Part shown: in pieces, positions 1 through 17,706 of the stretch | Numbering within the stretch: the first letter of the stretch is position 1 | How the letters are laid out: each line of letters begins with the position of its first letter | Virus record (IMG/VR): IMGVR_UViG_3300023198_001368 | Span: 122 to 32,154 of that record | Reading direction: 5' to 3' (one strand) | Origin: a virus | Length of the DNA: 32,033 nt | Notes under the pieces: model-generated | Database searches by the model: none | Seen by the model: the letters and a program-made list of their open reading frames with translations, nothing else | What the model was told of the DNA's origin: nothing | Position numbers and translations under genes: made by a program

Positions 1-528
<528 letters not shown>

Positions 529-560
529 TGTCTGTGTCTCCGGTTGCGGGTTGGGTTGGG
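529..560 (-). promoter_or_regulatory. Leader with Shine-Dalgarno, copy B
   Basis: On the minus strand this leader has CAACC repeats, then AACCGGAGACACAGACA directly before the ATG at 528. It closely matches the leader of the upstream gene (1506-1534), including the first coding words ATGACCAAC. GGAGA is the likely ribosome binding site. Confidence 0.6.
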
Positions 561-572
561 TTGCGGTGCGGC

Positions 573-1505
573 CTACTCGCCGTCGTCGGGGTCGGCCAGC
601 AGCAGGGCGGCGGTGATGTCGGTGTCCAGCTCGTCCATCTGCTCCTGCAGCTCGGGAAGCGCCTGGCTGCAGAGCGCCTCGTAGTAACGCACCTTGTCAC
701 GCAGCTTGCTGCTCTTGCTCTCCCTGGTGCGCAGCGCGCTGGCGCCGAGCGCCTTGTCGCCGGTGCGCTCCAGCTCCTCTGCCCACTCCTTCACCGCCTT
801 CTGCGCCTCGCGGGTGATACCGTCCAGCACGGCCTCGACCACGCCCTCCGACTGCAACGCGTCGATGCCGTAGACCTTGCACTGGCTGACGGTGTGGATG
901 ACGTCGCGGTAGATGTTCCACTGCTCAACGTTCTCCGGGGGGATGTAACAGAAGCCACCGTCTTCACGCAGACGCACGGCGCCGAGGCTGCGCGCCAAGA
1001 CGTGCCAGACCCAGTTCCCGGTATTCGGGCTGATGAGGTAGTTCAGCGTCTCGTCGAACTGGGCACGCACGCTGTCGGCGTGCTTCCAACTCTCCGGGCT
1101 GAACTTGACGGTGGGCTTGGCTTCGGTGGGATCGGAGATGTCGTACACGATGCGGGCGACGACCATGTTGTCCACGTCGTAGCCGAGCGGCTGCGTGTCA
1201 TCGCCAGTAGCGTGCTCGTCCACCAGCGCCCAGCCACGACCGGCGTCGTCAGACTTCTTCAGCGGGCGCAGCATGTCGCTCGGCGCCTTGTGGTTGAACA
1301 TGGCCTTCCTGAGCGCCGCCTCCTCGGTCGTCTTGCGGGGGAGCAGTTTGGGGTCGAGCCCGCGCGCAGCCCACTCCTCCTCCAGCTGGCGGTTGTCGAT
1401 GGGGCCGTGCACCGAGAGGAACGACAGCTCGCCGGCTGACGTGCCCTCGGGAAGGTTGGCGATGGCGACGATGTTGGTGAGGTTGCCGTTGGTCGGGTTG
1501 GTCAT
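573..1505 (-). CDS. Phage protein of unknown function, 310 aa (resembles DUF6744-type proteins)
   Basis: The ATG at 1505 is chosen because GGAGA lies about 8 bases upstream; the frame is open further, but that extension covers the promoter-like and CCWGG-rich region. The protein is soluble with no signal or membrane segment. The N-terminal half holds PLGYDVDNMVVARIVYDIS and a segment with NWVWHVLARSLGAVRLREDGG followed by CYIPPENVEQW. The C-terminal 100 residues are strongly helical and charged (QKAVKEWAEELERTG), likely a coiled coil, and end in an acidic tail. From memory the pattern 'xGGxYFVPxE...EAVLDxITREAxxA' is that of phage DUF6744 proteins, but I could not check this. It sits directly upstream of the metallopeptidase and shares its leader sequence, so the two are probably co-expressed. 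Function unknown. Confidence 0.8.
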   Translation of the reverse strand: MTNPTNGNLTNIVAIANLPEGTSAGELSFLSVHGPIDNRQLEEEWAARGLDPKLLPRKTTEEAALRKAMFNHKAPSDMLRPLKKSDDAGRGWALVDEHATGDDTQPLGYDVDNMVVARIVYDISDPTEAKPTVKFSPESWKHADSVRAQFDETLNYLISPNTGNWVWHVLARSLGAVRLREDGGFCYIPPENVEQWNIYRDVIHTVSQCKVYGIDALQSEGVVEAVLDGITREAQKAVKEWAEELERTGDKALGASALRTRESKSSKLRDKVRYYEALCSQALPELQEQMDELDTDITAALLLADPDDGE

Positions 1506-1534
1506 GGTCTCTGTCTCCGTTTCGGTTGGGTTGC
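1506..1534 (-). promoter_or_regulatory. Leader with Shine-Dalgarno, copy A
   Basis: On the minus strand this reads GCAACCCAACCGAAAC, then GGAGACAGAGACC, then the ATG at 1505. It is nearly the same sequence as copy B at 529-560. GGAGA is the likely ribosome binding site and fixes the start codon of the 310-aa gene. Confidence 0.6.
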
Positions 1535-1563
1535 TGCTGCCTGCTACCGTTGCAGGCTTCCAC

Positions 1564-1593
1564 ATATTATGCGCCTGGCCACATGCTTCGCAA
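1564..1593 (-). promoter_or_regulatory. Candidate sigma70-type promoter for the leftward unit
   Basis: On the minus strand TTGCGA (1593-1588) is followed, after 18 bases, by TAATAT (1569-1564). The expected start of transcription is about 1557, giving a leader of roughly 50 bases before the ATG at 1505. TAATAT is in one of the few AT-rich patches of this GC-rich window, which supports the call. It would drive the 310-aa gene and the metallopeptidase. Confidence 0.5.
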
Positions 1594-1599
1594 GCTAAT

Positions 1600-1745
1600 C
1601 GCTCGCCCTGGCTGGGGCCCCTGGAAACCAGCCGACCCGGCCAGCCTGGCCCGGGGGCCAGGCGCCAGGCGGTCGGGCTGTCCCCCGCCCTGGCGGCCCC
1701 TGCCAGCTGATGCCAGGGAGGCCCCTGGCGACGTCCCTGGTGACG
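1600..1745. repeat. CCWGG-rich non-coding island A with hairpins
   Basis: This divergent spacer (1506-1797 in full) has no credible gene. Between about 1606 and 1740 I count nine CCAGG or CCTGG words. It contains a perfect hairpin at 1645-1662 (CCTGGCCC, two-base loop, GGGCCAGG) and a GGGGCCCC palindrome near 1613-1620. The 11-mer GCCAGGGGCCC of the island at 16761-16989 has a close match here on the minus strand (CCAGGGGCCCC). Candidate roles are a protein-binding or replication/recombination region. No function is proven. Confidence 0.6.
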
Positions 1746-1749
1746 TCCC
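1730..1749. promoter_or_regulatory. Tandem GACGTCCC direct repeat (possible operator)
   Basis: GACGTCCC occurs at 1730-1737 and again at 1742-1749. The 12-base offset is about one helical turn, and each copy contains the palindrome GACGTC. The pair sits just upstream of the candidate rightward promoter at 1761-1789, where a regulator could bind one face of the DNA. No regulator is identified in the window. Confidence 0.35.
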
Positions 1750-1760
1750 GAACAGACGGT

Positions 1761-1789
1761 TTCGACACGCTGCGCTGACGCCGCATAAC
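1761..1789 (+). promoter_or_regulatory. Weak candidate promoter for the rightward operon
   Basis: TTCGAC (1761-1766), a 17-base spacer and CATAAC (1784-1789) sit immediately before the ATG at 1798. Transcription would start within a few bases of that ATG, making the first gene nearly leaderless; indeed no Shine-Dalgarno is visible (ACCTGGCAGC precedes ATG). Both boxes match the consensus poorly. Confidence 0.3.
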
Positions 1790-1797
1790 CTGGCAGC

Positions 1798-1998
1798 ATG
1801 ACCGACAACCAAGACGCAGCCGTGGCGAACGCGCTGCTCGATGTCACCGCCGCCAAGACGCGCACCGCCGACGAGGCGTTGCGTGCTCTCGCCTTCGCCA
1901 TGGCCCACGTCTGTCGGTCGATGGGCATGCCGATAGCGACCGCGGTGCAGCGAGTGCGCGACGCAGGACAACGGCTCCCGAAACCACTGACAGACTGA
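1798..1998 (+). CDS. Small hypothetical protein, 66 aa
   Basis: First gene of a four-gene rightward operon. The protein (MTDNQDAAVANALLDVTAAK...) is helical with no Cys, no signal and no membrane segment. The middle (DEALRALAFAMAHVCRSMG) could form an amphipathic helix, and the second half (PIATAVQRVRDAGQRLP) another, so a small helix-turn-helix-like or adaptor fold is possible, but I recognise no motif. Its TGA overlaps the next ATG by one base (TGATG), which supports both starts. No ribosome site precedes the ATG; see the candidate promoter. Function unknown. Confidence 0.6.
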   Translation: MTDNQDAAVANALLDVTAAKTRTADEALRALAFAMAHVCRSMGMPIATAVQRVRDAGQRLPKPLTD

Positions 1999-2306
1999 TG
2001 CCTCGACGCGGCTACGGACCGAGACAGCGCGCCGTCTGCTGGGCCGCGGGCTACGCCGAAGACGTGGACCGATGGTGGGACCAGTACATCAACGTCAACC
2101 TGTCACTCGTACCGTTGTCGGCGGCCCGTGAGCATGGCCGACAGCTGCGCATCCAAGGCCAGTCACGACAGCGCCAACTGCAGGGGCTCACCAACATCAC
2201 GTCGATCTGGAACTTGGTCTCAGCTAAGATGCGTCAGGTGGACGAAGGGTGCGCGGTGCTGACTGCCGCGGCCAGACTAATGAACGACGGGGAAGACGAT
2301 GCCTAA
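1998..2306 (+). CDS. Hypothetical protein, 102 aa
   Basis: It starts at the ATG overlapping the previous stop (TGATG), indicating translational coupling. The protein is basic at the N-terminus (MPRRGYGPRQRAVCWAAGY) and continues EDVDRWWDQYINVNLSLVP, then a Gln/Arg-rich helix (GRQLRIQGQSRQRQLQGL), ending in an acidic tail MNDGEDDA. No membrane segment or catalytic motif is seen. It overlaps the nuclease gene by 8 bases. The operon position and basic composition would fit a small nucleic-acid-associated protein, but this is a guess. Not recognised as a known family. Confidence 0.6.
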   Translation: MPRRGYGPRQRAVCWAAGYAEDVDRWWDQYINVNLSLVPLSAAREHGRQLRIQGQSRQRQLQGLTNITSIWNLVSAKMRQVDEGCAVLTAAARLMNDGEDDA

Positions 2307-2745
2307 GAAAGACCCGAAGCGAGTGGCCGCGGGCAAGCGCTCGCGCAACAAAGGGAAGACGTGGGAGCGCGCCATCGTGCGTCTGCTCAAGCCAGTGTGG
2401 GACGCGTTCCGCGGACACCAAGACAGCCGCGGTGGGTTCGGCGGTGGCGAGGGGTGCGACGTGGAGGGCACGCCATTCTACATCGAGGCACGCCACGAGC
2501 AGCAGTACGACTGGCGCAAGCATCTGCGCGAGGCACTGACCATGAAGACGGCGCGCGGTGACGCACGCCCCGTCGTGCTCATCGCCAAGGAGGACAAGAA
2601 GCCTCCCGGGTGGAGCGTCGGCAAGCCGGGCACACCGCCTGTCGCCATCATGTTGATGGACGACTGGTACGAGCTAGCGCGCCAGGTGGTGTCGCTGCAA
2701 CGCAAGCTGGAAGCGCAGGCCCGAGCAAGGAGTAAGGCACCATGA
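2299..2745 (+). CDS. PD-(D/E)XK-type nuclease (Holliday-junction-resolvase-like), 148 aa
   Basis: The protein opens with a basic segment and NKGKTWERAIVRLL, which matches the first helix of phage and archaeal resolvase-like nucleases (conserved Glu23). The core is GCDVEGTPFYIEARHEQQ: Asp54 and Glu63 take the place of the D and E of the PD-(D/E)XK motif, with Arg65 where lysine is usual. A helix with Arg and Leu follows (KHLREAL), then RPVVLIAKEDKKPP and the AIMLMDDWYELARQVV ending typical of this fold. Expected role: metal-dependent cleavage of branched or damaged DNA in replication, recombination or packaging. The ATG overlaps the previous gene, and the TGA overlaps the next start (ATGA). 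The EAR variant could lower or alter activity. A restriction-like or inactive nuclease is the alternative. Confidence 0.65.
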   Translation: MPKKDPKRVAAGKRSRNKGKTWERAIVRLLKPVWDAFRGHQDSRGGFGGGEGCDVEGTPFYIEARHEQQYDWRKHLREALTMKTARGDARPVVLIAKEDKKPPGWSVGKPGTPPVAIMLMDDWYELARQVVSLQRKLEAQARARSKAP

Positions 2746-3095
2746 CGACCGAAGACTGGCAAGCCCGCGCCATCGTAGCCGAGGGCAGGGCGGACGGGTT
2801 GCAGATGGAGAACGAGCACCTGAAACGCGCAGTCGACCAGCTAGCCAAGCCGGCGCCACCGACACAGCAGTCCCGCACCGAGCGCGCCGTCTACGGCGAG
2901 GCTGGTACAGGTGGAGAGGCGAAGGCGGTGCGCGCGGAGGAACACCTCTGCAGCGACTGTCTGCACGCGCACACCTGCGAGGTCGCCGCTGTGCTGGAGC
3001 GCCGCGACGAATGGCTGACTGCGCTGGCTCGGTGTGCCGCCTACTGCAGCATGACCGAGCAGTGCGTTCTGCCTTCCGCTGATCCGTCTGAGTGA
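2742..3095 (+). CDS. Hypothetical cysteine-rich protein, 117 aa
   Basis: Last gene of the rightward operon, coupled to the nuclease gene by an ATGA overlap. Residues about 1-35 form a likely coiled coil (AEGRADGLQMENEHLKRAVD). A Pro/Thr/Gln linker follows, and then a Cys/His cluster (HLCSDCLHAHTCEVA...CAAYC...EQC) that could bind zinc. The combination of coiled coil and zinc cluster suggests a small oligomeric binding protein, but I do not recognise the family. It ends 14 bases before the compound hairpin at 3109-3162, which probably terminates the operon. Confidence 0.6.
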   Translation: MTTEDWQARAIVAEGRADGLQMENEHLKRAVDQLAKPAPPTQQSRTERAVYGEAGTGGEAKAVRAEEHLCSDCLHAHTCEVAAVLERRDEWLTALARCAAYCSMTEQCVLPSADPSE

Positions 3096-3108
3096 TACAC
3101 TGGCAGAG

Positions 3109-3162
3109 GCGTTGCGGGTGATGCGGTCTGGTCTTCCCCCCAGACCCTTCTGCCCGCAACGC
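3109..3162. terminator. Compound nested hairpin between convergent operons
   Basis: An outer perfect 10-bp inverted repeat (GCGTTGCGGG at 3109-3118 and CCCGCAACGC at 3153-3162) encloses an inner 7-bp hairpin (GGTCTGG at 3125-3131 and CCAGACC at 3140-3146). A competing pair, GGCAGA (3102-3107) with TCTGCC (3150-3155), is also possible. It lies between the rightward stop (3095) and the leftward stop (3162), so it can serve both strands. There is no clear U-tract, so a Rho-dependent or structure-only mechanism is possible. Confidence 0.6.
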
Positions 3163-3689
3163 TACTCAACCTCGCGAGCGCTGTCGCGTAGCTCCTCCCA
3201 TGTCTTGCCCAGCGCGCGAGGCAGGTCAGTCTGCGCGTAGGCGCTGCGCTCATGCTCTGCGTCTCGGTAGCCGTTGGTGATGCCGTGGCGAACGACGGCG
3301 GTGATGTTGTGCACGAACAGCCAGAGGCCGCCACTGCACCAGATGCACACGGCGAGCAGCCAGTGACCGGTGACTAGCCAGGCAGCCACGGCGACCAGCG
3401 CCGCCTTCGCGTTCTCGTCTTCTGCCTGGCGCACATGAACGGCCTCGTGCCGCTCGGTGCGGTTGTCAGCAGCAGCGGTGTCGTCGTAGGCGAGCGGCGT
3501 GTAGACCACCGCCCGGCCCAGCGTGACGCTGAAGCGGGTGGCGACCCAGGGCCGCCAGGCGGCGGTGAGCACCAGGCCGGGGGCGACGCGGTAGCGGTGG
3601 GCGAAGCCCAGCCCCAGCAGCAGCAGCGCCAGCCAGGAGCCGAGAGCGGTAGGTAGGGAGACCAGGAGTAGCAGCCAGCGCATCACCAT
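3162..3689 (-). CDS. Membrane protein with HExxH metallopeptidase motif, 175 aa
   Basis: The ATG at 3689 overlaps the previous TGA (TGATG); a second ATG at 3683 is nearly as good, preceded by GAGGTG. Residues about 4-28 form a Leu-rich membrane segment, and about 96-133 contain one or two more. Between them lies RHEAVHVRQAEDENA, with an HExxH zinc motif at 81-85. Downstream, DAEHERSAYAQ offers a candidate third ligand (Glu147), so the layout is gluzincin-like. It is the last gene of the lysis cassette, after a holin-like and two spanin-like genes, where an endolysin might be expected; no other murein hydrolase is visible. A role in cutting peptidoglycan cross-links or envelope protein is conceivable but unproven. 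The metallopeptidase motif is what I see; the lytic role is inference. Confidence 0.65.
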   Translation of the reverse strand: MVMRWLLLLVSLPTALGSWLALLLLGLGFAHRYRVAPGLVLTAAWRPWVATRFSVTLGRAVVYTPLAYDDTAAADNRTERHEAVHVRQAEDENAKAALVAVAAWLVTGHWLLAVCIWCSGGLWLFVHNITAVVRHGITNGYRDAEHERSAYAQTDLPRALGKTWEELRDSAREVE

Positions 3690-4126
3690 CACCTCGCGTA
3701 GCCAATGACCAGGCCAGTGGCGACCACGCCAATGACCACGCCGACCGGGCCCCAGACCCAAGGCTTGCCGGCGAACCACCCGTCTCGGTCGCGCTCGGCC
3801 TGCTCCCGACCGCGCACAGCGACATCGACCACCGTCTGGCTGGCAGCAGCGCTCTTCTTCGCGGCGTCCAACGCCTTCGTCAGCGCCTTCACCCGTGCCA
3901 CCTGCACCTCATCCCGCTTGTGACACAGCTCCAGTTCGGCCCGCCGCACCCGCAACTCCTCCACGTCGGCTAGCACCTGGCGCGAGATGGCCTCGGGCAG
4001 CCACACGCCAGGCACGCCCTCATGCTCCAGTGGCACGGCAGCAGCAGGCGGGTCAGCCAACGCGGTCGCGCTGCAGAGCAGGACGGCGCTAGCGATACAG
4101 CTTGTTGAAACGGTCAGCAATCTCAT
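3689..4126 (-). CDS. Spanin-like envelope protein with N-terminal signal and C-terminal membrane segment, 145 aa
   Basis: The start at ATG 4126 gives a clear signal peptide (MRLLTVSTSCIASAVLLCS then ATALA-DPP) with a signal-peptidase I-like site after ALA. A Cys at 18 (VLLC) is only a poor lipobox. Residues about 45-115 are a charged coiled coil (VEELRVRRAELELCHKRDE...). Residues 123-143 form a C-terminal membrane helix ending VIGYAR. An exported N-terminus, periplasmic coil and C-terminal inner-membrane anchor is the plan of unimolecular spanins (T1 gp11 type), which join outer to inner membrane for the last step of lysis. The start overlaps the i-spanin-like gene by 38 bases, as spanin pairs often do. 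The weak lipobox is the main argument against it. Confidence 0.6.
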   Translation of the reverse strand: MRLLTVSTSCIASAVLLCSATALADPPAAAVPLEHEGVPGVWLPEAISRQVLADVEELRVRRAELELCHKRDEVQVARVKALTKALDAAKKSAAASQTVVDVAVRGREQAERDRDGWFAGKPWVWGPVGVVIGVVATGLVIGYAR

Positions 4127-4433
4127 CGCGTGTCTTCCCCTGGACGTCTTCACGTACCGCAACGGCTTCACGCTGGGCCGCCGCAATGGCGGTGCTCAGC
4201 TTCACTTCCTCGTGGGCCAGTTCGTCGGCGCGCTCCTCGGCGCTGGCCCGCTTCGACTCCAGTGCGGCCACCTGCACCCGTGCCTTCTCCACCTTCACCG
4301 CGTCCTGCAGGCGGTCGACCTTGCGCGAGTAGGCGCCCCACGCAATGAAGCCCAGCAGCAGCGCAATGAGCGCCACCGAAACGGCCTCGATGTGCTCGCG
4401 CACCCATCGCCACGCAGTCAGCAACCAGAGCAC
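4089..4433 (-). CDS. i-spanin-like (Rz-like) protein, 114 aa
   Basis: The GTG at 4433 is preferred because AAGGAG lies 7-8 bases upstream, within the end of the previous gene; longer upstream starts would overlap that gene deeply. Residues about 15-34 form one membrane helix (EAVSVALIALLLGFIAWGAY). The rest is a long charged coiled coil (KVDRLQDAVKVEKARVQVAAL...) ending EIADRFNKLYR. N-terminal anchor plus periplasmic coil is the Rz/i-spanin plan, which spans the periplasm and fuses membranes after cell-wall breakdown. It follows the holin-like gene and overlaps the second spanin-like gene. No sequence-level family match is claimed. Confidence 0.6.
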   Translation of the reverse strand: MLWLLTAWRWVREHIEAVSVALIALLLGFIAWGAYSRKVDRLQDAVKVEKARVQVAALESKRASAEERADELAHEEVKLSTAIAAAQREAVAVREDVQGKTRDEIADRFNKLYR

Positions 4434-4437
4434 CGCG

Positions 4438-4848
4438 TCACTCCTTGCTGTCGGGCGGTGGCTTGCTGGTGCCAGGGAGCTTGAGGTCGATGCCCTTCTT
4501 CTTGGCCCAGCCCTTCGCGATGGCGAAGGCCCACGTAGACATGATACCGGCGAAGGCAAAGTAGAGGACTGCAGCCGCGCGTGTGTCGACCTTGTCCGCT
4601 ACCGGTAGCGACCACAGCACACCGACCAGCGCACCGACCGCGACCGGGTGGAGGGGCATGGTTTTCCGCCCCCACCAGAAGAAGCGCCAGAGCACCGCGT
4701 TCGGCGTCTCCGTACGCCACCGAAGGAAGTTGCGCTCCGTCCACACCGTGCCCTTCAACACCTGCCCGATCGTGGCAAAGATGAGCATGGCCGCGACGAA
4801 CGGCCAATGGTCACCAACGGCCTCGCCTAGTTGTGCAAACAGATCCAT
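4438..4848 (-). CDS. Putative holin, 136 aa
   Basis: Three membrane segments are visible at about residues 16-34 (PFVAAMLIFATIGQVLKG), 65-82 (PLHPVAVGALVGVLWSLPV) and 90-110 (AAAVLYFAFAGIMSTWAFAI). They are followed by a short basic and Pro-rich cytoplasmic tail (KGWAKKKG...KPPPDSKE). Size, three-segment topology and charged C-terminus fit class I holins, which form inner-membrane holes and time lysis. Context is strong: two spanin-like genes and an HExxH membrane protein follow. No dual-start motif is evident (MDLFAQLGEAVGDHW). A non-lytic small membrane protein remains possible. Confidence 0.6.
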   Translation of the reverse strand: MDLFAQLGEAVGDHWPFVAAMLIFATIGQVLKGTVWTERNFLRWRTETPNAVLWRFFWWGRKTMPLHPVAVGALVGVLWSLPVADKVDTRAAAVLYFAFAGIMSTWAFAIAKGWAKKKGIDLKLPGTSKPPPDSKE

Positions 4849-4851
4849 CGG

Positions 4852-5208
4852 TCATTCCCCTTCCGACTGGTACACGATCACAGTTCCGTTCAGCGCCAGC
4901 ATATCCGGCGGCACGTCACGCTCCGCCGCGTGTGCGCTCGCGTGCGCCGGGTGACTCTGCCCCTGCTCGATCAACCGCTGCGCCAATGCGTTGACCACGC
5001 ACCGGTGATGGTTCGGCGGCGCGTCGGGCAGCGTGTCCCAAGTGCGCTGCAGAAACTCCATCGCGCCGCAGTCGCACGCGGGCACCGCAATCACACCCGG
5101 CGCGCTGTCGGTGCCGAGACACAGTGCGGCGACCGCGTGCCGCACAGTCGCACCGCAGTGCGCGCAGCGCGTCACCACGCGCTCAACCGTTAGCTCTACT
5201 ATCGCCAT
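4852..5208 (-). CDS. Small zinc-ribbon protein of unknown function, 118 aa
   Basis: The ATG at 5208 is used; a longer frame would run into the fibre gene. The N-terminus has a Cys pair CAHCGATVRH and a second cluster ACDCG about 30 residues later, consistent with a zinc ribbon. The middle has His-rich PPNHHRCVVNALAQRL and the end is acidic. No membrane segment. It lies between the last tail fibre gene and the holin-like gene, 8 bases from the former and 3 from the latter. Similar small zinc proteins occur between tail and lysis modules of phages, but I cannot name this family. Confidence 0.65.
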   Translation of the reverse strand: MAIVELTVERVVTRCAHCGATVRHAVAALCLGTDSAPGVIAVPACDCGAMEFLQRTWDTLPDAPPNHHRCVVNALAQRLIEQGQSHPAHASAHAAERDVPPDMLALNGTVIVYQSEGE

Positions 5209-5216
5209 CCGGGCAC

Positions 5217-7043
5217 CTACAGCGACACGGTGAGCGTGCCTGCCATGCGCGCCGCGCCGGCACCGCTCGAAGTCCCGCGCACGAGACAACCGCCGACAGA
5301 GACATCCATCACGTCGAGGAACGCTGCGTTGAGGTTTGAGGCGCTAGGCGAGTAAGTCAGCGTGCTCGGGACGCTGTTGAACTTACTGATGAACGTGACG
5401 CCCTGCACCATCTCCTCGCCCGAGCCAGCCGCTAGCTGCGCGGCGCCGACCTTGTGCGACATGTTCACGGCGTCGGTGATGCGGTTGCCGTTCGGGTTGA
5501 TCTCGAACAGTGCGGCGGCAACCGTGTTCTGGATGCGCACCTGGCGGTCACCGCCCTGCGTTCCAGTGTGCACCGAGTCGAGCCGCCCGATGCTGGTGCC
5601 ACCCGTCTGAATGTTCCAATACTTCATGATGAGCGCGTTGTCGCTAGCGTCGCCCGTACCGGGGAACACCACGGCGCGCGCGGCTCCAGTGGCGGCAAAC
5701 TCAAAAGTCTCCCCGCCCTGGATCTGCAAATTCTGCCCAATGACGAGAGCACCATCAACAACGTGCGCAAAGATGCCGACGCGCTGCGCGCCACCGCCCG
5801 CGGTGAACAACTCGTACAAGTATGGCGCAGGACCAGCCGCGCCAGCATCGACCAGCGGCCCCTGGAAGCCGCCGAGGAACGCATCGTTGGAGGCGAGCCG
5901 CCGCATGGCCCCCGCCTGCAACTCGTTCAGCTGACTGCCCACGTCCCCTTGCGTGAGCCACCCCTGCACGTCGGCACCCACACGCGACGCACCATCGGCA
6001 CCCGCGCCGGCTTGATCGTTCAGCAACGTGAGCAGATCGGAGATCGCGCTGCGTACCGAGCCCTGCGAGAGTGAGAACCCGCCGACCGAAAGCACATCCA
6101 TCCCGATCCGATTCGCGCCGTCGTCGCCTGCGATGGCTTGGTCGGCAAGCGCTTGAACCACCGCACTGATCTGAGAGCGCACGGTGCCTGCCGGCAGGTC
6201 CAGGGCACCGGACCCACCCGCAGCAATCGACGCGCCACCAATAGCGCTCGCACCATCGCTGCCCGTGTCGGCATCCAAGCGCCCGAGCAGATCCACCAGC
6301 ATCGCCTTCAGCGTGCCCTGCGGTGACGAGTAGTTCGTGCCTGTGATGGCGTCGATGCCGACCAGGGTGGCACCATCGTCCGGCGCAGTATCGTCGGACA
6401 GGTCAGCCACTCCGGTGTTCACCGCGTCCAGCATGGCCTGAAGCACGTCGTGCAGACTGCGCTCGTTAATCTCGGTCGGGCTGCCAGTGAGCTGGTAGAT
6501 GTACTCGGTACGGTCCACCTTGATGTCGGCGTTCAGGATGGTGAGCTGGCCGAAGGTGATGAGCACGTCGGCCAGCAGAATATCGGTGGCGTCCAGCGGC
6601 GGGCGGGCAGGCGACACCGCCTCGGCACCCTGCACCACGCGCAGCGAGAAGCTCTCGGTGCGGTCGTAGTAGATGGTGTCGCCAAAGCCGTCTGTCCGCG
6701 GGTCGGTCAGCAGCCGCTCGAAGTGCGCGAAGATGGAGAGGTACTTCGAGTTCGCCGCGCCGACCACCGCGGTTGCTGCACCGTGCTCGTCCAGCGCGCA
6801 GTCCACGTTCTGCGTAGCGGCGAACGAGATGTGCTGCGCTTGCTTGTCGAATATGACGGCTGGCCCCTGCACCTGGACGGTGAAGTTGGGCGCCGCCTGT
6901 TCTGTCACCTGGCCGTTGGTCGCGACACCGGTGAACTCGAACGCAGCAATGAACGCCTGGATGCCGGCTTCCACGGCGTCGAACGCCTGGTCCAGCTCTT
7001 GCTCAGTGGCCTTCTGACGGAAGAAGAAATCGTAGCGGTCCAT
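5217..7043 (-). CDS. Repeat-containing tail fibre or baseplate-associated protein, 608 aa
   Basis: The N-terminus (MDRYDFFFRQKATEQELDQAF) looks like a tail-attachment segment. Residues about 222-375 hold four degenerate repeats of roughly 42-45 residues, each beginning with [SDA]DGA...[VI]G and containing QG[ST][VL][RK] followed by an amphipathic helix (for example DDGANRIGMDVL ... SLSQGSVRSAISDLLTLLND). The C-terminal third is Gly/Ala/Ser/Asn-rich beta structure ending in GTLTVSL. This plan (anchor, repeated shaft, beta tip) is typical of trimeric phage fibres. It is the last structural gene before the zinc-ribbon and lysis genes, next to the gpI-like gene, which is where receptor-binding fibres usually sit in P2- and Mu-like orders. 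No autoproteolysis motif or enzyme domain is recognised. Confidence 0.7.
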   Translation of the reverse strand: MDRYDFFFRQKATEQELDQAFDAVEAGIQAFIAAFEFTGVATNGQVTEQAAPNFTVQVQGPAVIFDKQAQHISFAATQNVDCALDEHGAATAVVGAANSKYLSIFAHFERLLTDPRTDGFGDTIYYDRTESFSLRVVQGAEAVSPARPPLDATDILLADVLITFGQLTILNADIKVDRTEYIYQLTGSPTEINERSLHDVLQAMLDAVNTGVADLSDDTAPDDGATLVGIDAITGTNYSSPQGTLKAMLVDLLGRLDADTGSDGASAIGGASIAAGGSGALDLPAGTVRSQISAVVQALADQAIAGDDGANRIGMDVLSVGGFSLSQGSVRSAISDLLTLLNDQAGAGADGASRVGADVQGWLTQGDVGSQLNELQAGAMRRLASNDAFLGGFQGPLVDAGAAGPAPYLYELFTAGGGAQRVGIFAHVVDGALVIGQNLQIQGGETFEFAATGAARAVVFPGTGDASDNALIMKYWNIQTGGTSIGRLDSVHTGTQGGDRQVRIQNTVAAALFEINPNGNRITDAVNMSHKVGAAQLAAGSGEEMVQGVTFISKFNSVPSTLTYSPSASNLNAAFLDVMDVSVGGCLVRGTSSGAGAARMAGTLTVSL

Positions 7044-7070
7044 CGGTGTCTCCCTACTGTATCACGTCGG

Positions 7071-8846
7071 CTAGTGCAGGATGAAGGTTCCGGGTGCGCC
7101 CCCTGGTGCGCTGCTTCCTAGTTCAGACAAGCCCAGTTCGAGGTGGTCTATCGTCGCCGGCGGGGTGTCATCCAGCACGCCGAGCAGATGGGTGTGGGCC
7201 GGCTTCATGTACTCAGCAATCGAGGTGATGCGCTCGCGCTGCTCGTCCGTCAGGATGCCAGGGGCCAGCACGCGGAAGGAGTACAGACCGTCGCGAGACG
7301 GGCCCAGCGAGACGGGGGACACCGGCGCCTCGACACCTGGCGCGCTCAGCTCGTCGCCCACGAGCCCCGGATGCACCGGGCCCAGTGCGTCCAGGTCTGG
7401 CGTGTCCGGGTTGCCCAGTTCCCAGCCCTCGCCGTTGAACACTTCGATGGTGACCTCGATGCCTACGAAGAATCGCACGACGTCGATAATCCCGACGCCG
7501 GTTCCCTTGAGCTTGTAGATGTCCACCAGCACACGGACCAGGCGGCGCTTGTCCGTCTCGTTCAAAACGAACTCGACAAAGGGGTTGCCCAACCCGACCA
7601 GCATGGCATCGACAAACTGTTCGGGCGCCGTGTCCACGTCGAGTATGTAGCCCCACTCGTCCACGCTGCAGAGCAGGAGGTTGGTGACCTCCTGCACGAT
7701 GCCCAGTGTGGCGCGAAGCTCGCCACTGGCATCTTCGGACTTGTTCATGTTGGGGATGAAGTCAGCCACGCGGAAGCGCCGGCCTGCCGGGTAGGGTGGA
7801 GTGAACGCATCGAACGTGGAGTCGTTGGCGGGCGCGACGAAGGCGTTGCCCGCTTCATCCACCACGTTCGCCACGACCAGCAGGTACGGTGCACCAAAGG
7901 TCAGCTCGATGTCGGTGGTCACGTCCACCGTCACGGCGTTCACCTGCACCACGCTCACCGCTACCACCTCCACCGCTGGGCGCGACTGCCGCTCGAACAA
8001 ATAGTTCGCGGGGTTCAACGCATCGCTGGTGTCGGCAGCGTTCGCCATGCGCACCGGTTCCGAGTACGTGATGCGCAGCAGCTTCTTCCCGCGGGCGAGC
8101 ACGCTGTCGATCAACGGCGGTGTCAGGTCCAGTGCACGGAAGGTCCACGTCTCGTCCGTGCTGAGCGACGCCGACTGGAAGTTGGCGGTCACCGTAGCGC
8201 TGTCGGTGTAGGCCGCCGGTGGAGTGGCGGTGAACTGCTTGACGTAGGTGCTCGCGTTCACCACCGCGCCAGTCCACCCGTTCTGCCAACCGCCACCGCT
8301 AGACCAAGCGAGCACGGTGTCGACGCGTAGCTCCATGTCGGTGGGCCAGAGTGCGGGGCCCTGGTGGAAGACCTCGAAGTAGACGTCCTGCGTGTAGAGC
8401 ACACCGCGCTCAGTCGGCGTCGGGTTGCGGTTGAACACTTCAAGCTGTTCGGTGGCAGCCACCCCGACGAGGGTGGCGTAGCTCCAACCGAAGATGGTGT
8501 TCGCATCCGGTGGCCCAGAAACCGGAACGCACTTCACGGTAGACGTTGCGCCAAACGAGTCAGACTGGATGCGCACCGTGCCACTCACTGCCGTCGCAGT
8601 GCCGTCTGGCCACTGCGAGTTGATGGCGGCGGCTACCTCGACCGCGGTCGCTTGGGACAGGTCCGCAAACTGCGGGTCGGTCAGGTTGATGGTGGTCGGA
8701 CCACCGTCTGCCTCTAGCTGCATCGACACCGATGGCGTCAGGTCAAACGGCTCAGACTCCGTACCGTCAATCGTGCCGTGCGTGGCGTCGAACACCTGTT
8801 CGACAATGCCGTCAAGCTGCACACTGGGCAGACCCAGTTCAGTCAC
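7071..8846 (-). CDS. gpI-like baseplate wedge protein with N-terminal beta module and Ig-like insertion, 591 aa
   Basis: Residues about 33-125 form a beta module (ADGGPTTINLTDPQF, ATAVEVAAAINSQW, GTVRIQSDSFG) also present in the sheath of this phage. The middle carries an Ig-like SbsA/Big_5-style domain (GKKLLRITYSEPVRMANA...NPANYLFER). The C-terminal part has VDIYKLKGTGVGIIDVVRFF and LTDEQRERITSIAEYMKPAHTH, which match the remembered P2 gpI/TIGR01634 tail protein pattern (KGT followed by a C-terminal PAHT motif). gpI proteins build the baseplate wedge with gpJ and link to tail fibres. Its start overlaps the preceding gene (ATGA). It is much longer than classical gpI (about 180 aa) because of the added beta domains. 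Confidence 0.75.
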   Translation of the reverse strand: MTELGLPSVQLDGIVEQVFDATHGTIDGTESEPFDLTPSVSMQLEADGGPTTINLTDPQFADLSQATAVEVAAAINSQWPDGTATAVSGTVRIQSDSFGATSTVKCVPVSGPPDANTIFGWSYATLVGVAATEQLEVFNRNPTPTERGVLYTQDVYFEVFHQGPALWPTDMELRVDTVLAWSSGGGWQNGWTGAVVNASTYVKQFTATPPAAYTDSATVTANFQSASLSTDETWTFRALDLTPPLIDSVLARGKKLLRITYSEPVRMANAADTSDALNPANYLFERQSRPAVEVVAVSVVQVNAVTVDVTTDIELTFGAPYLLVVANVVDEAGNAFVAPANDSTFDAFTPPYPAGRRFRVADFIPNMNKSEDASGELRATLGIVQEVTNLLLCSVDEWGYILDVDTAPEQFVDAMLVGLGNPFVEFVLNETDKRRLVRVLVDIYKLKGTGVGIIDVVRFFVGIEVTIEVFNGEGWELGNPDTPDLDALGPVHPGLVGDELSAPGVEAPVSPVSLGPSRDGLYSFRVLAPGILTDEQRERITSIAEYMKPAHTHLLGVLDDTPPATIDHLELGLSELGSSAPGGAPGTFILH

Positions 8847-10962: not shown

Positions 10963-12464
10963 CCGGTGTAGTTCACGAGCACGAGACCCGTGTCCCCATT
11001 GTAGATAGTGACGTACCGCAAGACCGGGAAGTTATGCGGCGGCACGACGAGGTCGTTGGCCTCGTTGTTGACCTGCACCGCGCCAGGCGTGTCCGCCATC
11101 TTGCGCACACCGGTCGTGTCGCGAATGACATTGTAGATGTCGCTAAACGCCACCTCGTTGTCGATCTGGTAGCCGAACCCGATGTCGGGGTTGGGTGCAC
11201 CCTCGGGCGTGTTCAGCGCGAAGAAGTAGAGCAGGTTGGTCCGTATCTCGTTGTCGACGTCCTCCGGCACAGCACCGTCTGCCAGGAAGACCATGCACAC
11301 CACGTCCACGTAGAGCAGGATGGGGTCGAGCACCTGCACCAGGAAGGTGAGGGTGTTCGGGTACGTCACCGTGACCATGGTGAACACGGCATCCTTCAAC
11401 GCTTGCGTTGGCACACCGCCACCGGTGGGCACGATGTAGAGTTCGCCCTGGTTCTCCAGCACGCCCTCCTTCTCGTTCGACGTGGCCATGAACGCACGCT
11501 CCACACCAGGGACGCGCAGCGCGTTCGTCTCGTAGTCTTCGCGCGCGACCGTGCGGTTGAGAGTGCGCAGGCTGCGCGGCGCGAGTACGCGGATAGCCTC
11601 CACGCTCTCGCGGTCATCGCCGCCACTGGCCTTCGTACTGTTCGTCACCGTCACCGTCTGCGGGTTGCCGAAGGAGTCGGTGTAGGCGCGGTCGGCCCTG
11701 GCGATAGTGCCAGGGAGCACGTTCCCCAACGTCCCTCCGCCGACCTTATAGATGGCGCTGATGGTGCCACTGGGGATGGCGCCGTTCACACCGTTGCCGA
11801 ACCGAATGGTGGCGCGGTTGTTCTCGTCCACGGTCACGGTGTAGTGGCGGTCGGTGGCGGTGCTATCGAGAAAGTCGTCCACCACGGAGTAGGCGCCATT
11901 GCTCGCCACCACGTCGCTCGACCCACTGAGAAACGGGTCGTGAAGGAGCTGGTACTCCTGGTTCGGCGTGTCGTCGCTCTGCAACACCTCGTCCCGCCGC
12001 TCGCTGTGCTCCACCGTGAAGATCACGCTGGGCGGAGTGGCGCCCGCCGCAATCACCACGTCGGCCAACGCCTGGAACACCAGCGGGTCGGTCACCTCCA
12101 GTGTGCGGAACGCGTCCTGCGCCTGGATGGTGACGGTGCCCACCGGAGGCGCAGCCAGCGTGAAAGTCAACTCGGCCGTGGCCGCGACGTTGCCTGATGG
12201 GACGTAGCCGAGGAGCTTGGCGAGCGCGAGCATGCTGCGCCGAAGCTGCGCGTTACCGATGAACGCCTCACGCGCCTGATTGTCTTGGTAGTAGAGCAGC
12301 ACGTCGCCCACGAAGGCGAACAGCTCCATCATAATGTTGCCGAAGTTGGCAACGTTGAAGTCCGTCCATTCTGGGAAGGCACCGCGGATGAGGTTGATCA
12401 GCCGCGCGCGCAGACTGTCGAAGTCCTTGTCGGTGTAGTCTAGGTTCTCGCCCAGCAGTGCCAT
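10959..12464 (-). CDS. Baseplate J / gp6-like wedge protein, 501 aa
   Basis: The N-terminus LDYTDKDFDSLRARLINLI, followed by FNVANFGNIMMELFAFVGDVLLYYQDNQAREAF, is the classic start of baseplate J/gp6/gp47 proteins. The centre contains RATIRFGNGVNGAIPSGT, the conserved 'FGDGxxGxxPxxG' segment, and RTLNRTVAREDYETNALRVPGV. The C-terminal half is beta/alpha with repeated strands. Together with gp25 and gpI this forms the wedge ring that surrounds the hub and triggers sheath contraction. Its stop-start overlaps with neighbours (TGATG before, ATGA after) fit a baseplate operon. Length is in the normal range for this family. Confidence 0.88.
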   Translation of the reverse strand: MALLGENLDYTDKDFDSLRARLINLIRGAFPEWTDFNVANFGNIMMELFAFVGDVLLYYQDNQAREAFIGNAQLRRSMLALAKLLGYVPSGNVAATAELTFTLAAPPVGTVTIQAQDAFRTLEVTDPLVFQALADVVIAAGATPPSVIFTVEHSERRDEVLQSDDTPNQEYQLLHDPFLSGSSDVVASNGAYSVVDDFLDSTATDRHYTVTVDENNRATIRFGNGVNGAIPSGTISAIYKVGGGTLGNVLPGTIARADRAYTDSFGNPQTVTVTNSTKASGGDDRESVEAIRVLAPRSLRTLNRTVAREDYETNALRVPGVERAFMATSNEKEGVLENQGELYIVPTGGGVPTQALKDAVFTMVTVTYPNTLTFLVQVLDPILLYVDVVCMVFLADGAVPEDVDNEIRTNLLYFFALNTPEGAPNPDIGFGYQIDNEVAFSDIYNVIRDTTGVRKMADTPGAVQVNNEANDLVVPPHNFPVLRYVTIYNGDTGLVLVNYTG

Positions 12465-12997
12465 CAGCTAGTGCCTCCGAGGTTGACGACCGTCTCCAGG
12501 TCGCCCGCGAGCACGGTGTTGTCGCCGCTGTTCTCGTCAACCAGTTCGTACTTCACGCGGATGCCCAGGACGTTCAGCTTGCCACCGGTCGGCGCGCTGG
12601 TGCGGAAGAGACTGACGGCGTTGATACGGATGCGCGGCTCCCACCGGCGCAGCGCGTCGGCCACGAAGCGCCGTGCCTGCTCGACCAGCGCTTGCGAGTT
12701 GAGACGCTGGCGCAGAAGGTAGAGCTTGCTGCCGAACGCGGTGCGCCAGGGTAGCTCGCCGGAAGCGAACTCGCTGTCGCTGGAGGTGCCGAGCACCTGG
12801 CCGACGCATGCCGCGACCAGTCGGGCGCCCGAGGCGTTGGCGAAGTCCACCTTCTGGTCCCTGGTGAACGGACGCAGGATGCCACGGCCCGTGAACGACA
12901 GGCTGGTAGCTTGCGCGATACCCGGGTCGGCGGGCGCCGAGACAGGTATGCTCGGCGTCCACGGGTCCGTCAGCAGGGGCCAGTCGGCAGTTCCCAT
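12464..12997 (-). CDS. gp25-like baseplate wedge protein, 177 aa
   Basis: The ATG at 12997 overlaps the previous TGA by one base. Residues about 80-120 (LPWRTAFGSKLYLLRQRLNSQALVEQARRFVADALRRWEPRIRI) match the GPW/gp25 family pattern, in which 'TxxGxx...' is followed by a long helix and '..WEPRI.I...' . The end VKYELVDENSGDNTVL is also typical. An N-terminal extension of about 60 residues (TDPWTPSIPV, GRGILRPFTRDQKVDFA) precedes the core; the last part resembles the usual 'G.G...P......D' start. gp25 starts sheath polymerisation at the baseplate. It sits between gpJ and an Ig-like gene, as in other contractile tails. Confidence 0.85.
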   Translation of the reverse strand: MGTADWPLLTDPWTPSIPVSAPADPGIAQATSLSFTGRGILRPFTRDQKVDFANASGARLVAACVGQVLGTSSDSEFASGELPWRTAFGSKLYLLRQRLNSQALVEQARRFVADALRRWEPRIRINAVSLFRTSAPTGGKLNVLGIRVKYELVDENSGDNTVLAGDLETVVNLGGTS

Positions 12998-13380
12998 CAG
13001 TACCCAATCTCCTTCCGGGTCGTGTTCCCTGCCGCGTCGGTGGCGATGATGACCACCTGGATGGGCGTGGCGAGCCAGCCGCCAGTGCGACGCACGGTGA
13101 AGCGGTGGCCGTTGGCGATGGGCACCCGAGATGAGCCGGCTGCGTAGCGCGACTCGTAGCTGATGCCGTTGAACGCCACCTCGGCAACGCCCTCGGCCTG
13201 GAACCGGACGTGCACCGTGACCACGGCGAACTCGCCGGAGTTGTCCTTCACGTCGAACGCGACCGGGTCGGTGCGGCTCACCAGCACGCCCTCGGCCGGG
13301 TCGAAGTTGTCGATCACTGGCGGGATGGGGTCCACGCCTGCACCGCCGACACCTGCCCACGCAACGGCACCCCAAGTCAT
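12997..13380 (-). CDS. Ig-like beta-sandwich protein, 127 aa
   Basis: The ATG at 13380 is chosen because it overlaps the glycosyltransferase stop (ATGA); a longer frame exists. After a Gly-rich start (MTWGAVAWAGVGGAGV), the segment PPVIDNFDPAEGVLVSRTDP begins an Ig/fibronectin-like fold: strands AFDVKDNSGEF, VVTVHVRFQAE, GHRFTVRRTGGW, IQVVIIATDAAGNTTRKEIGY. The final 'ATDAAGNxT' motif is a hallmark of bacterial Ig-like domains. Such domains decorate phage baseplates and fibres and may make weak contacts with cell-surface glycans. It is cotranslated with gp25. Confidence 0.7.
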   Translation of the reverse strand: MTWGAVAWAGVGGAGVDPIPPVIDNFDPAEGVLVSRTDPVAFDVKDNSGEFAVVTVHVRFQAEGVAEVAFNGISYESRYAAGSSRVPIANGHRFTVRRTGGWLATPIQVVIIATDAAGNTTRKEIGY

Positions 13381-14048
13381 GCGGCCACCTCCAGTCCTTG
13401 CCACGCTGCCGACAACGCGGACGCTTCGCGCTCCCGCTTCTGCGGGTGGAAGCACAACGACTCACGCGAGAACGCCGCGTCGAAGTTGACTGGCGGCCAC
13501 CGATGCCGACGCGCACCGCGCACGACCCGCATCGCGTAGCCAGCCCGCCGGAACACTGCACCGAGGTACACGTCGTCGGTGTCGCGGGTGCGCGGGTCAC
13601 GCCCCCACCGCAACACCTCGTCCGCGTCCAGCCACTCCGCACGGTACGCCCACGCGCACAGCCCACCGAGGTAGTCGGCCGGCCCCTCGTCCACCGTACC
13701 GCCGTCGCGCGTGTGTCCCTGGAAGCCGCAGACACAACCCGTGCGCTCCACTTGGTCGACCAGCGCGCGAGCGTGGTCTGGTGCGTAGCAGTAGTCGTCG
13801 TCCACCGTGACAACCACATCTCCCGGGCTGCACAGCGCTGAGGCGAGGTGCTTCTTACCGGGGCCGATGTCTTCCACCACGCACAGCTCGGCGCGCGTGC
13901 CAGCTACCGCGTCGACTGCCGCTGAGCGCACCTGTGGAGCAACGAACACCAGCACGCGTCCCACGCCAGACAGCGCGCACGCTGCCTCCACCGCCGGTCG
14001 GGCGAGGGCGACGCGGGGCTCCCACGTTGTCAGGCTAGCTACGATCAC
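13377..14048 (-). CDS. GT-A-type glycosyltransferase, 223 aa
   Basis: The GTG at 14048 overlaps the previous TGA (GTGA) and gives a sensible N-terminus, MIVASLTTWEPRVALARPAV; longer starts overlap the neighbour. The fold signature is clear: VIVASLT first strand, CVVEDIGPGKKHLASAL, then GDVVVTVDDDYCY with the DxD-type metal/nucleotide-sugar site at 83-85. Later RDTDDVYLGAVFRRAGY (about 155-170) supplies the expected acidic catalytic region. It should transfer a sugar from a nucleotide-sugar donor. Its location, tightly coupled inside the baseplate module between an Ig-like gene and a small beta gene, is unusual for host-modifying enzymes and hints at glycosylation of a virion or fibre protein. 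The acceptor cannot be read from sequence. No membrane segment is present. Confidence 0.8.
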   Translation of the reverse strand: MIVASLTTWEPRVALARPAVEAACALSGVGRVLVFVAPQVRSAAVDAVAGTRAELCVVEDIGPGKKHLASALCSPGDVVVTVDDDYCYAPDHARALVDQVERTGCVCGFQGHTRDGGTVDEGPADYLGGLCAWAYRAEWLDADEVLRWGRDPRTRDTDDVYLGAVFRRAGYAMRVVRGARRHRWPPVNFDAAFSRESLCFHPQKREREASALSAAWQGLEVAA

Positions 14049-14446
14049 GGGCCAGGGTTCCTGACGACTTCGCAGCGTGCGATGAAACGCACGTTGTCCG
14101 TTCCCGTTCCAGTCCAGCGCACCTGCAACCGAAGCACGCCGTCCTCGGTGTAGACGATCTGCGCTTGATTGCCCCACGCCAGGTTCTGCAACACTTCGTC
14201 AAACGCAGAGTAGGCGTCGAGCAGGAAGGTGTTCGGTCCAGCGGAGTCCGCAATGAGGAACGAGTGCGCCGTGCCTGCCCCGTTCTTGTTCGCGGCCCCG
14301 GTGTTGCCGGCCGTGAACAGCAGTCGCGTGACAACGTAGACCGCCTCACCATACGGGACGGTGATGGTGAGCAAGTCCTGAAACGCGGTGTCGGACGGCG
14401 TGAGAATGTCGTCGGCGTCGTACAGCTCGAATCTTCGGTCTGCCAT
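14045..14446 (-). CDS. Small beta-rich tail-associated protein, 133 aa
   Basis: The protein reads MADRRFELYDADDILTPSDTAFQDLLTITVPYGEAVYVVTRLLFTAG..., with alternating strands and a core AHSFLIADSAGPNTFLLDAY, and finishes VLRLQVRWTGTGTDNVRFIARCEVVRNPGP. The regular beta pattern and the ending suggest a compact sandwich, like small head-fibre or tail-tip proteins. It lies 10 bases downstream of the large fibre gene and overlaps the glycosyltransferase start. It may cap, chaperone or attach the fibre; or it could be the substrate of the enzyme next door. Not assigned to a family. Confidence 0.65.
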   Translation of the reverse strand: MADRRFELYDADDILTPSDTAFQDLLTITVPYGEAVYVVTRLLFTAGNTGAANKNGAGTAHSFLIADSAGPNTFLLDAYSAFDEVLQNLAWGNQAQIVYTEDGVLRLQVRWTGTGTDNVRFIARCEVVRNPGP

Positions 14447-16760: not shown

Positions 16761-16989
16761 GACGTCTCCTATCCTACATCACCCCGGCCTGCTTGAGCAG
16801 GTGCGCCGAGCTGGCTGCCAGGGGCCCGCCAGGTGCGTCGCAGCCGCCAGGGCTGCCCGGTGGCACCCTGGCCAGGGCCGACGCAGCAGGGGGCGGCCTG
16901 GCAGGCCCCAGCCAGGGGCCCGGCTGGGGAGCATTTCGTTGTCGCAACTCTTGACACGCGCCGCATCTCCATCACCGCCACCGCCCCTC
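16761..16989. repeat. CCWGG-rich non-coding island B with hairpins
   Basis: This 229-base gap interrupts an otherwise gapless structural operon and holds no credible gene. I count seven CCAGG or CCTGG words between about 16808 and 16920, and GCCAGGGGCCC occurs twice. A perfect hairpin lies at 16906-16929 (CCCCAGCC, 8-base loop, GGCTGGGG). A near-perfect palindrome lies at 16788-16801 (CCTGCT, two bases, AGCAGG), close to the fibre start. A plus-strand TTGACA (near 16952) has no matching -10 box. A minus-strand TTGCGA is seen too, again without a clear -10. It resembles island A at 1600-1745 in composition and words. Confidence 0.6.
16906..16929. repeat. Perfect 8-bp hairpin in island B
   Basis: CCCCAGCC (16906-16913), loop AGGGGCCC (16914-16921) and GGCTGGGG (16922-16929) form a very stable stem. 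The loop contains GGGGCCC and may pair further. There is no T-run on either side, so a classical Rho-independent terminator is not supported. It could pause transcription or reduce read-through between the hub and fibre parts of the block. Confidence 0.6.
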
Positions 16990-17706
16990 TCACTCGACCG
17001 GGATGCTGTCGCGCAGCGCGCGGAGCTGGTCGAGAGCCTTCTCCAACTCTTCTATCGCCTTCTCGGGGTCGTCGCCAAGCCCGCCCTCGAAGCTGGGGAT
17101 GTCGAGGTCCAGGCCAGCGGCCTCGCTCAGCTTATTCAGCAGCTCGACCATCGAGTTGATGGAGTTGAACAGCCGCTCCAGGTTGGACAGGCCCGACGAA
17201 GCGCTGCCCTCGGCGCAGTCGATAATCCCTTGGAGGAGACTGTTGCCGATGCCCTTGGTTGACGCGATGCGGTTGAGCAAGTCGATAATCGCGCGCAGCT
17301 CTCGAATGACGCCGTCGATCATCTGGATGATGACGTCAATCAGGCCGACGATGAGAAGCGGGAGCGAGACTTGTGGCAGCAGCGCAAGGAGCTTCTGCAT
17401 CTTGGCGAGCAGATTGGGGATGCACGCAGCCAACGCGTCCGGGTCAGGGGGCGGTCCGATGGTGTCGGGTATCGCCTCGATGCAGTTCACAATCGCAATG
17501 ATGGTCTCGATGATGTCGAAGATTGGCTGCAGCGGCGCGAGGCCAGCGCTGGCCTGACCGAGCAGCGAACGCGCCAGCGCGAGCAGGCTGGGCGGGAACG
17601 TCTCGAAGAACGTGCACATCTGCGCGCCACCTGGAAAGACCAGGCAGAGGTCTTGCCCCATCAGGTCGAGCAGGTCGCAAAGCTCGTCAATTTCTGGAAG
17701 TCCCAT
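16990..17706 (-). CDS. Hydrophobic helical protein of unknown function in the baseplate module, 238 aa
   Basis: The start overlaps the spike stop (TAATG). The protein is almost wholly helical. Hydrophobic helices include PIFDIIETIIAIVNCIEAIP (about 61-80) and SLPLLIVGLIDVIIQMIDGVI (about 114-134). The C-terminal 60 residues are an acidic amphipathic helix (PEKAIEELEKALDQLRALRDS). Five or more Cys are scattered through the first 165 residues (CDLL, CLVF, MCTF, NCIE, ACIP, DCAE). It lacks a signal peptide, and the hydrophobic helices carry Asp and Gln, so a helical bundle or a lipid-active protein rather than a normal membrane protein is likely. It is the last gene before island B, directly behind the gpV-like spike. 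A spike-delivered or spike-assembly factor is conceivable. Not recognised. Confidence 0.7.
   Translation of the reverse strand: MGLPEIDELCDLLDLMGQDLCLVFPGGAQMCTFFETFPPSLLALARSLLGQASAGLAPLQPIFDIIETIIAIVNCIEAIPDTIGPPPDPDALAACIPNLLAKMQKLLALLPQVSLPLLIVGLIDVIIQMIDGVIRELRAIIDLLNRIASTKGIGNSLLQGIIDCAEGSASSGLSNLERLFNSINSMVELLNKLSEAAGLDLDIPSFEGGLGDDPEKAIEELEKALDQLRALRDSIPVE

Follow-up and report, generated by a model that had tools for sequence, protein, structure and literature searches.

Introduction

As described in the available portions of the reports on them, the stoperators of Cluster A mycobacteriophages are distributed across the phage genome and have a known repressor (PMC9283540, PMC6550527). 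The accessible text on halovirus HF2 reports intergenic repeats that carry promoters and are whose units measure 58 or 29 bp and contain AT-rich motifs (PMC8707807). The Dcm site is CCWGG, according to the part of the source consulted (PMC4924334).

Here we describe a word containing CCWGG that is clustered in two intergenic islands, A and B, of an uncultured phage. The window, i.e. the whole stretch of DNA analysed (32,033 nucleotides), covers positions 122-32154 of a virus record of 32,154 bp. In the parts available of the literature on phage CCWGG/CCAGG, intergenic or GC-rich divergent repeats, stoperators and DUF6744, no published report of such an array was found.

Results

Phage context of the window

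A scan against PHROGs showed that the window encodes part of a contractile-tailed phage (myovirus), including sheath, tube, tape measure, hub and wedge proteins.

24860-27139, tail sheath (phrog_15814 and tail sheath families)

Sheath relatives in IMG/VR contigs had best-segment identities of 42-66% (80 kept of 133). In genome records, 50 of 60 sheath loci were titled myxobacteria or deltaproteobacteria, with genus names grouped by hand. At the DNA level, positions 1-8000 of the window matched no phage record. The islands gave short matches only against 50,697 phage records, from which records very near the window may be left out: the best E value was 0.06 for island A among the listed 15 of 18 records, and 3 or more for island B among the listed 15 of 34. 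No tRNA was found.

Two places in the fragment concern its assembly. At the left end (window 1-57 together with positions 1-200 of L014), a CTG trinucleotide repeat is broken by a run of N; this looks like a scaffold gap within a repeat that would encode poly-glutamine in the leftward gene. The gp25-like wedge region at 12464-14446, where the wedge-family match spans only residues 354-430 of a 451-aa ORF, may be frame-disrupted or mis-assembled.

Anatomy of island A

Island A and its neighbours are arranged as follows.

573-1505, minus strand, DUF6744-like protein of 310 aa (its Pfam score, 20.3, falls short of the curated cut-off, 27)
1506-1797, island A, divergent intergenic region with 11 CCWGG and nine GCCAGG words
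1566-1593, minus strand, promoter-like TTGCGA-16-CATAAT of the DUF6744-like gene, the sole site from the scan at A
1607-1740, core of array A, nine CCWGG words
1614-1621, palindrome GGGGCCCC, read directly from the sequence
1644-1663, perfect inverted repeat with 9-nt arms (1644-1652 and 1655-1663) and 2 nt between
1762-1789, plus strand, tentative rightward promoter TCGACA-16-CATAAC, read by eye, absent from the scan output and weak
1798-1998, plus strand, small protein of 66 aa; G011 and L172 encode proteins of similar size at the corresponding position (24-25% identity)
2299-2745, plus strand, RusA-like Holliday junction resolvase

A preliminary description of this DNA had reported nine CCWGG words in about 140 bases, a hairpin at 1645-1662 with 8-bp arms and the palindrome GGGGCCCC. 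We located all nine words, which start at 1607, 1620, 1645, 1658, 1665, 1689, 1713, 1724 and 1736, and found two extra ones in the same gap, at 1574 and 1789. The hairpin was confirmed and extends a little beyond the arms described, the palindrome is present, and island A holds further inverted repeats. The GC content of 1600-1745 is 79.5%.

When the words of both islands were read as CCAGG, 16 of 18 had a preceding G, and GCCAGG/CCTGGC is the sharper unit. Outside this unit, the flanks carry at most about 0.5 bit per position in both islands. Word orientation is mixed and spacing irregular in A as in B. A periodic spacing was tested and was not significant (p 0.14 for A and 0.67 for B); a 12-bp period in A, plausible by eye, was rejected for the same reason.

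Clustering of the words

The whole window holds 167 CCWGG, or 0.76 per 146 bp, and with 90 expected the word is not avoided. Dinucleotide shuffles of the GC-rich island A contained 2.48 CCWGG on average (sd 1.33), and only 0.05% of 2000 shuffles reached at least nine. The density claimed to be above random expectation therefore holds against both the window average and the island's own composition. The excess of GCCAGG over shuffles is stronger than that of CCWGG, though CCWGG is also enriched.

We then corrected for the choice of the word. In A (1561-1797, strands combined) the top 6-mer is CCTGGC with nine copies, and none of 2000 shuffles has any 6-mer as frequent. The top 6-mer of island B is also CCTGGC/GCCAGG, with seven copies, six of them non-overlapping; 0.2% of shuffles reach six. 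At the 7-mer level, island B is weakly significant (1.6% of shuffles), and at the 5-mer level with the same correction it is not significant (8.5% of shuffles; 11% for its core). In the rest of the window, the commonest 6-mer reaches at most five copies in any of 1532 windows of 237 bp, with the islands and the first 100 bases left out.

By an approximate, hand-made gene set, in which 12464-14446 and 29954-30763 were counted as coding, the only noncoding gaps longer than 70 bp are A (292 bp) and B (229 bp). GCCAGG is found in both of them and in no shorter gap, and its density is 18.1/kb in noncoding and 2.1/kb in coding DNA of this set. A similar density in coding regions, named beforehand as a sign against the array, was thus not found; coding DNA stays below island density. 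Across 2.53 Mb in 200 other, partly overlapping loci, no stretch of 150 bp holds more than four GCCAGG, as compared with seven in each island. The clustering of the words is non-random.

Genes and promoter-like sites flanking island A

The words of A begin within the spacer of the leftward promoter, where one CCTGG lies at 1574-1578, and continue almost to the rightward gene. There, the CCTGG at 1789 overlaps the last base of the tentative rightward promoter, and the start codon follows at 1798.

A looser form of the leftward promoter, the pattern TTGCNN-15/17-CAYAAT, was found upstream of the DUF6744-like gene in four of 25 sequences, i.e. the window, L171 (G011), L172 and L015 (G001). Shuffled upstream regions gave a mean of 0.03, and none of 1000 sets had four or more, for a pattern that was composed after these sequences had been read; in all other loci its frequency is about one per 300 kb of strand. 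All four carriers have a RusA-like neighbour. L170 has the RusA neighbour and lacks the pattern. A strict scan supported a promoter at the syntenic gap only in the window and G011, and none at that gap in L172, L015 or L170.

Single-sequence searches of viral contigs with the DUF6744-like or RusA-like protein returned nothing, whereas alignment queries gave matches. The AlphaFold model of the DUF6744-like protein is confident (pLDDT 86); its fold had no match in the PDB at E <= 0.001, and no hint of a regulator was gained.

The divergent gap in relatives

G011 keeps the gene order, with the DUF6744-like gene, a gap, a 68-aa protein and the RusA-like gene. Its promoter-like sites (two found, 0.9 expected from shuffles) have their first hexamers at 1037 (minus) and 1053 (plus), 15 bp apart. 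In the window, the leftward site starts from 1593 and the tentative rightward one from 1762, with about 168 bp of array between them. On this reading, which takes in the tentative rightward promoter, the array would amount to additional DNA separating two promoters that stand back to back. The syntenic divergent gap measures 139 bp in L015 (G001), 145 bp in G011 and 292 bp in the window.

The words were not conserved, and the array is absent from all four syntenic relatives checked, a result that the preliminary description had named as counting against its claim. The syntenic gaps of G011 and L015 have zero words, and L170, L171 and L172 have no CCWGG from the RusA-like to the DUF6744-like gene. 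In L015 the same region (366 bp) holds two CCWGG and one GCCAGG, all outside its 139-bp gap. Three of the four syntenic relatives have only 39-43% GC at that gap.

Other repeats were seen in related loci. As judged by eye and with no control, two of 23 loci (L188 and L180) show stretches of GC-rich repeats, made of different words, ahead of the homologous gene. Four blocks of degenerate 20-bp (and 40-bp) repeats lie in the first 4 kb of a G011 contig (L158:829-987, 1200-1358, 3440-3604 and 3727-3832), mostly outside ORFs of 60 aa; they carry TGAACG and ACCAACG words and have 47-69% self-identity at lag 20. The repeats of G011, L188 and L180 differ in kind from the aperiodic array of the window, and they suggest rather than show a common theme. 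Elsewhere, interrupted arrays of heptamer-like words (GTTAGCT... and CTCAAGA...) stand beside phage-like genes in two MAG contigs (L044:2400-2545 and L065:4710-4845). CCWGG is missing altogether from L167 (G020; 10,001 bases, 57% GC) and L168 (G025; 9,532 bases, 69% GC) but is frequent in other relatives, which looks like avoidance of the site.

A host-derived repeat was also considered and set aside. A blastn search with A covered 195 genomes from the phylum of G027, which may not be the host's; with up to four candidates scored per genome, it gave weak local matches in 54 of them (E <= 0.01, best 1.3e-5). Ten loci from this search have at most three GCCAGG per 150 bp, and two of them (L194 and L199) reach six CCWGG. 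The first five genomes searched with island A gave nothing at E <= 0.001. A host origin of the array remains compatible with the blastn result, which covers the phylum of G027.

Island B and its neighbours

Island B lies among the following features.

14457-16760, minus strand, 767-aa protein downstream of island B
16700-16731, three further CCWGG within the start of the downstream gene, adjoining island B
16761-16989, island B, intergenic, seven GCCAGG words including CCCTGGCCAGGG
16990-17706, minus strand, tail-region protein of 238 aa encoded upstream of island B; many loci have a relative of it

The 767-aa protein has no PHROGs or Pfam match and no relative was found for it; its C-terminus gives a mere impression of a tail fibre. 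The strict promoter scan found none in island B. Close upstream of the 767-aa gene, a perfect dyad, CCTGCTTGAGCAGG, can be read directly at 16788-16801, adjoining a minus-strand TAGGAT hexamer; it is a possible candidate operator at B.

We compared the place of B in 40 loci, some of them near-duplicates, in which the match to the 238-aa gene extended past residue 200 (matches ending earlier were dropped). As the next gene we took any forward ORF of 100 aa, starting from its first ATG/GTG/TTG, so gaps may be underestimated; this gene is unrelated to the 767-aa gene of the window. Two loci had no such ORF. The gap is at most 26 bp in 34 of the other 38, and 51, 51, 90 and 215 bp in the rest, and none of these gaps has more than two CCWGG.

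Discussion

Of the single readings, we tentatively favour an operator array that is specific to this lineage and serves a putative DNA-binding protein. One sequence-specific protein, of phage or host, would bind the GCCAGG sites of both islands as DNA and so control the flanking phage promoters. Array A would sit between two back-to-back promoters and reach into both, and the bound protein would therefore repress or co-ordinate the DUF6744-like gene and the genes for the 66-aa and RusA-like proteins; array B, within the tail cluster, would precede the 767-aa gene. The rightward promoter, the protein binding and the transcriptional control are inferred. The reading draws on one top 6-mer shared by the two islands after correction for word choice, on the concentration of GCCAGG in the two large noncoding gaps, and on the recurrence of the promoter pattern at the left edge of A. 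Mixed orientation and irregular spacing are seen in many operator arrays. When folded as RNA, 1600-1745 shows no unusual structure on its plus strand (z -1.2, 26 of 200 shuffles), which points to DNA rather than RNA. Against an operator, four syntenic relatives manage without the words, no period is significant and the flanks hold little information; the rightward promoter is weak, the strict scan gave none at B or at the gap of L172, L015 or L170, and L170 combines a RusA neighbour with lack of the pattern. No DNA-binding regulator or cognate repressor was recognised among the 30 window ORFs compared with PHROGs, the record being a fragment. The earlier proposal of a protein-binding array in a divergent promoter region is thus partly supported and stays the preferred one: the words span the promoter region, and the leftward pattern recurs in relatives.

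Neutral expansion is nearly as probable as the operator array, given that the words lack conservation and that the search for a protein binding them found none. GC-rich, low-complexity DNA of neutral or selfish kind could have multiplied inverted word copies by slippage, template switching or repair in weakly constrained noncoding DNA, and A and B may be fragments of one dispersed intergenic repeat. It fits that relatives have less DNA at both places and that L180 and L188 have, by eye, GC-rich repeats of other words upstream of the homologous gene. Over about 100 bp, A aligns with the reverse complement of B at a score of 41, which beats 500 of 500 shuffles (mean 22.9, sd 3.5), and the islands share 13 9-mers (at most 12 in 300 shuffles). 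Common ancestry of the islands is possible, but this likeness can stem from the shared word alone: the direct-strand alignment is not significant (p 0.12), and the three shared 12-mers are within shuffles (max 5). Simple slippage would give tandem copies, but the spacing is irregular and the orientation mixed; one word lies inside the spacer of the leftward promoter, and the 2.53 Mb of other loci nowhere exceed four GCCAGG per 150 bp.

The remaining readings are less probable. In RNA, GC-rich hairpins might terminate or attenuate transcription, chiefly at B, which lies in the tail operon. Folding covered A on its plus strand and B on its minus strand; the B core gives an extended imperfect hairpin (z -2.09, matched by 8 of 200 shuffles), and some 60 bp beyond the upstream gene there is an inverted repeat (16906-16929). 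We regard this as unlikely, with no U-tract terminator in either region, no Rfam match at gathering score and an unexceptional plus strand of A, most of which is upstream of both proposed promoters and would thus not be transcribed from them. Methylation-sensitive control by a Dcm-type enzyme had also been suggested, and every word does contain CCWGG, which the window does not avoid. It is weakened to a very improbable reading by the extra G constraint in 16 of 18 words and by the lack of any methyltransferase family among matches of the 30 window ORFs to PHROGs. A replication origin (iteron-like), recombination or packaging site, proposed in part by the preliminary description, would suit an intergenic array with a RusA-like resolvase gene nearby. 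We give it an equally slight chance: regularly spaced direct repeats are absent, the words run in both orientations with no significant period, the two islands are 15 kb apart, and the 30 ORFs, many without a family, matched no initiator or integrase family in PHROGs, nor is there a tRNA. The cumulative GC skew within 1-6000, a check that had been proposed, peaks near 3.5 kb, away from A.

If the operator array is functional, GCCAGG is a sequence-defined candidate operator in poorly studied uncultured myoviruses and offers a simple test of the turnover of phage regulatory words. A more speculative extension, which we consider improbable, is that phages of this group carry, between conserved promoters placed back to back, GC-rich arrays whose word is specific to each phage, the word changing while the promoter stays, as a fast-evolving operator code. 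GCCAGG would be the word of the window, and the GC-rich repeats of L180 and L188 would be its counterparts. Such a code, if true, would be expected where arrays are kept distinct between competing phages. If the islands are neutral, they are a warning that dense word clusters in GC-rich phage gaps can arise without conservation.

Comparison with known systems

Repeats of the REP/BIME type are dispersed and intergenic. Like them, the islands are noncoding, have inverted copies and can form hairpins, but they lack a unit of fixed length and occur in only two places of the fragment. Like Dcm sites, each word contains CCWGG, whereas the constraint in the window extends to GCCAGG. The intergenic repeats of HF2, as far as the accessible text describes them, are likewise viral and associated with promoters; they differ in having AT-rich units of 58 or 29 bp, while the islands are GC-rich and without a long repeat unit. 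The stoperators of Cluster A mycobacteriophages, in the available portions of their description, share with the words the multiple repetition of a short asymmetric site within a single phage genome and its recognition by one protein, the latter a feature of theirs and a proposal here. Stoperators are genome-wide and have a known repressor, whereas the 6-mer described here forms clusters in two gaps, and none of the 30 window ORFs compared with PHROGs was recognised as a repressor.
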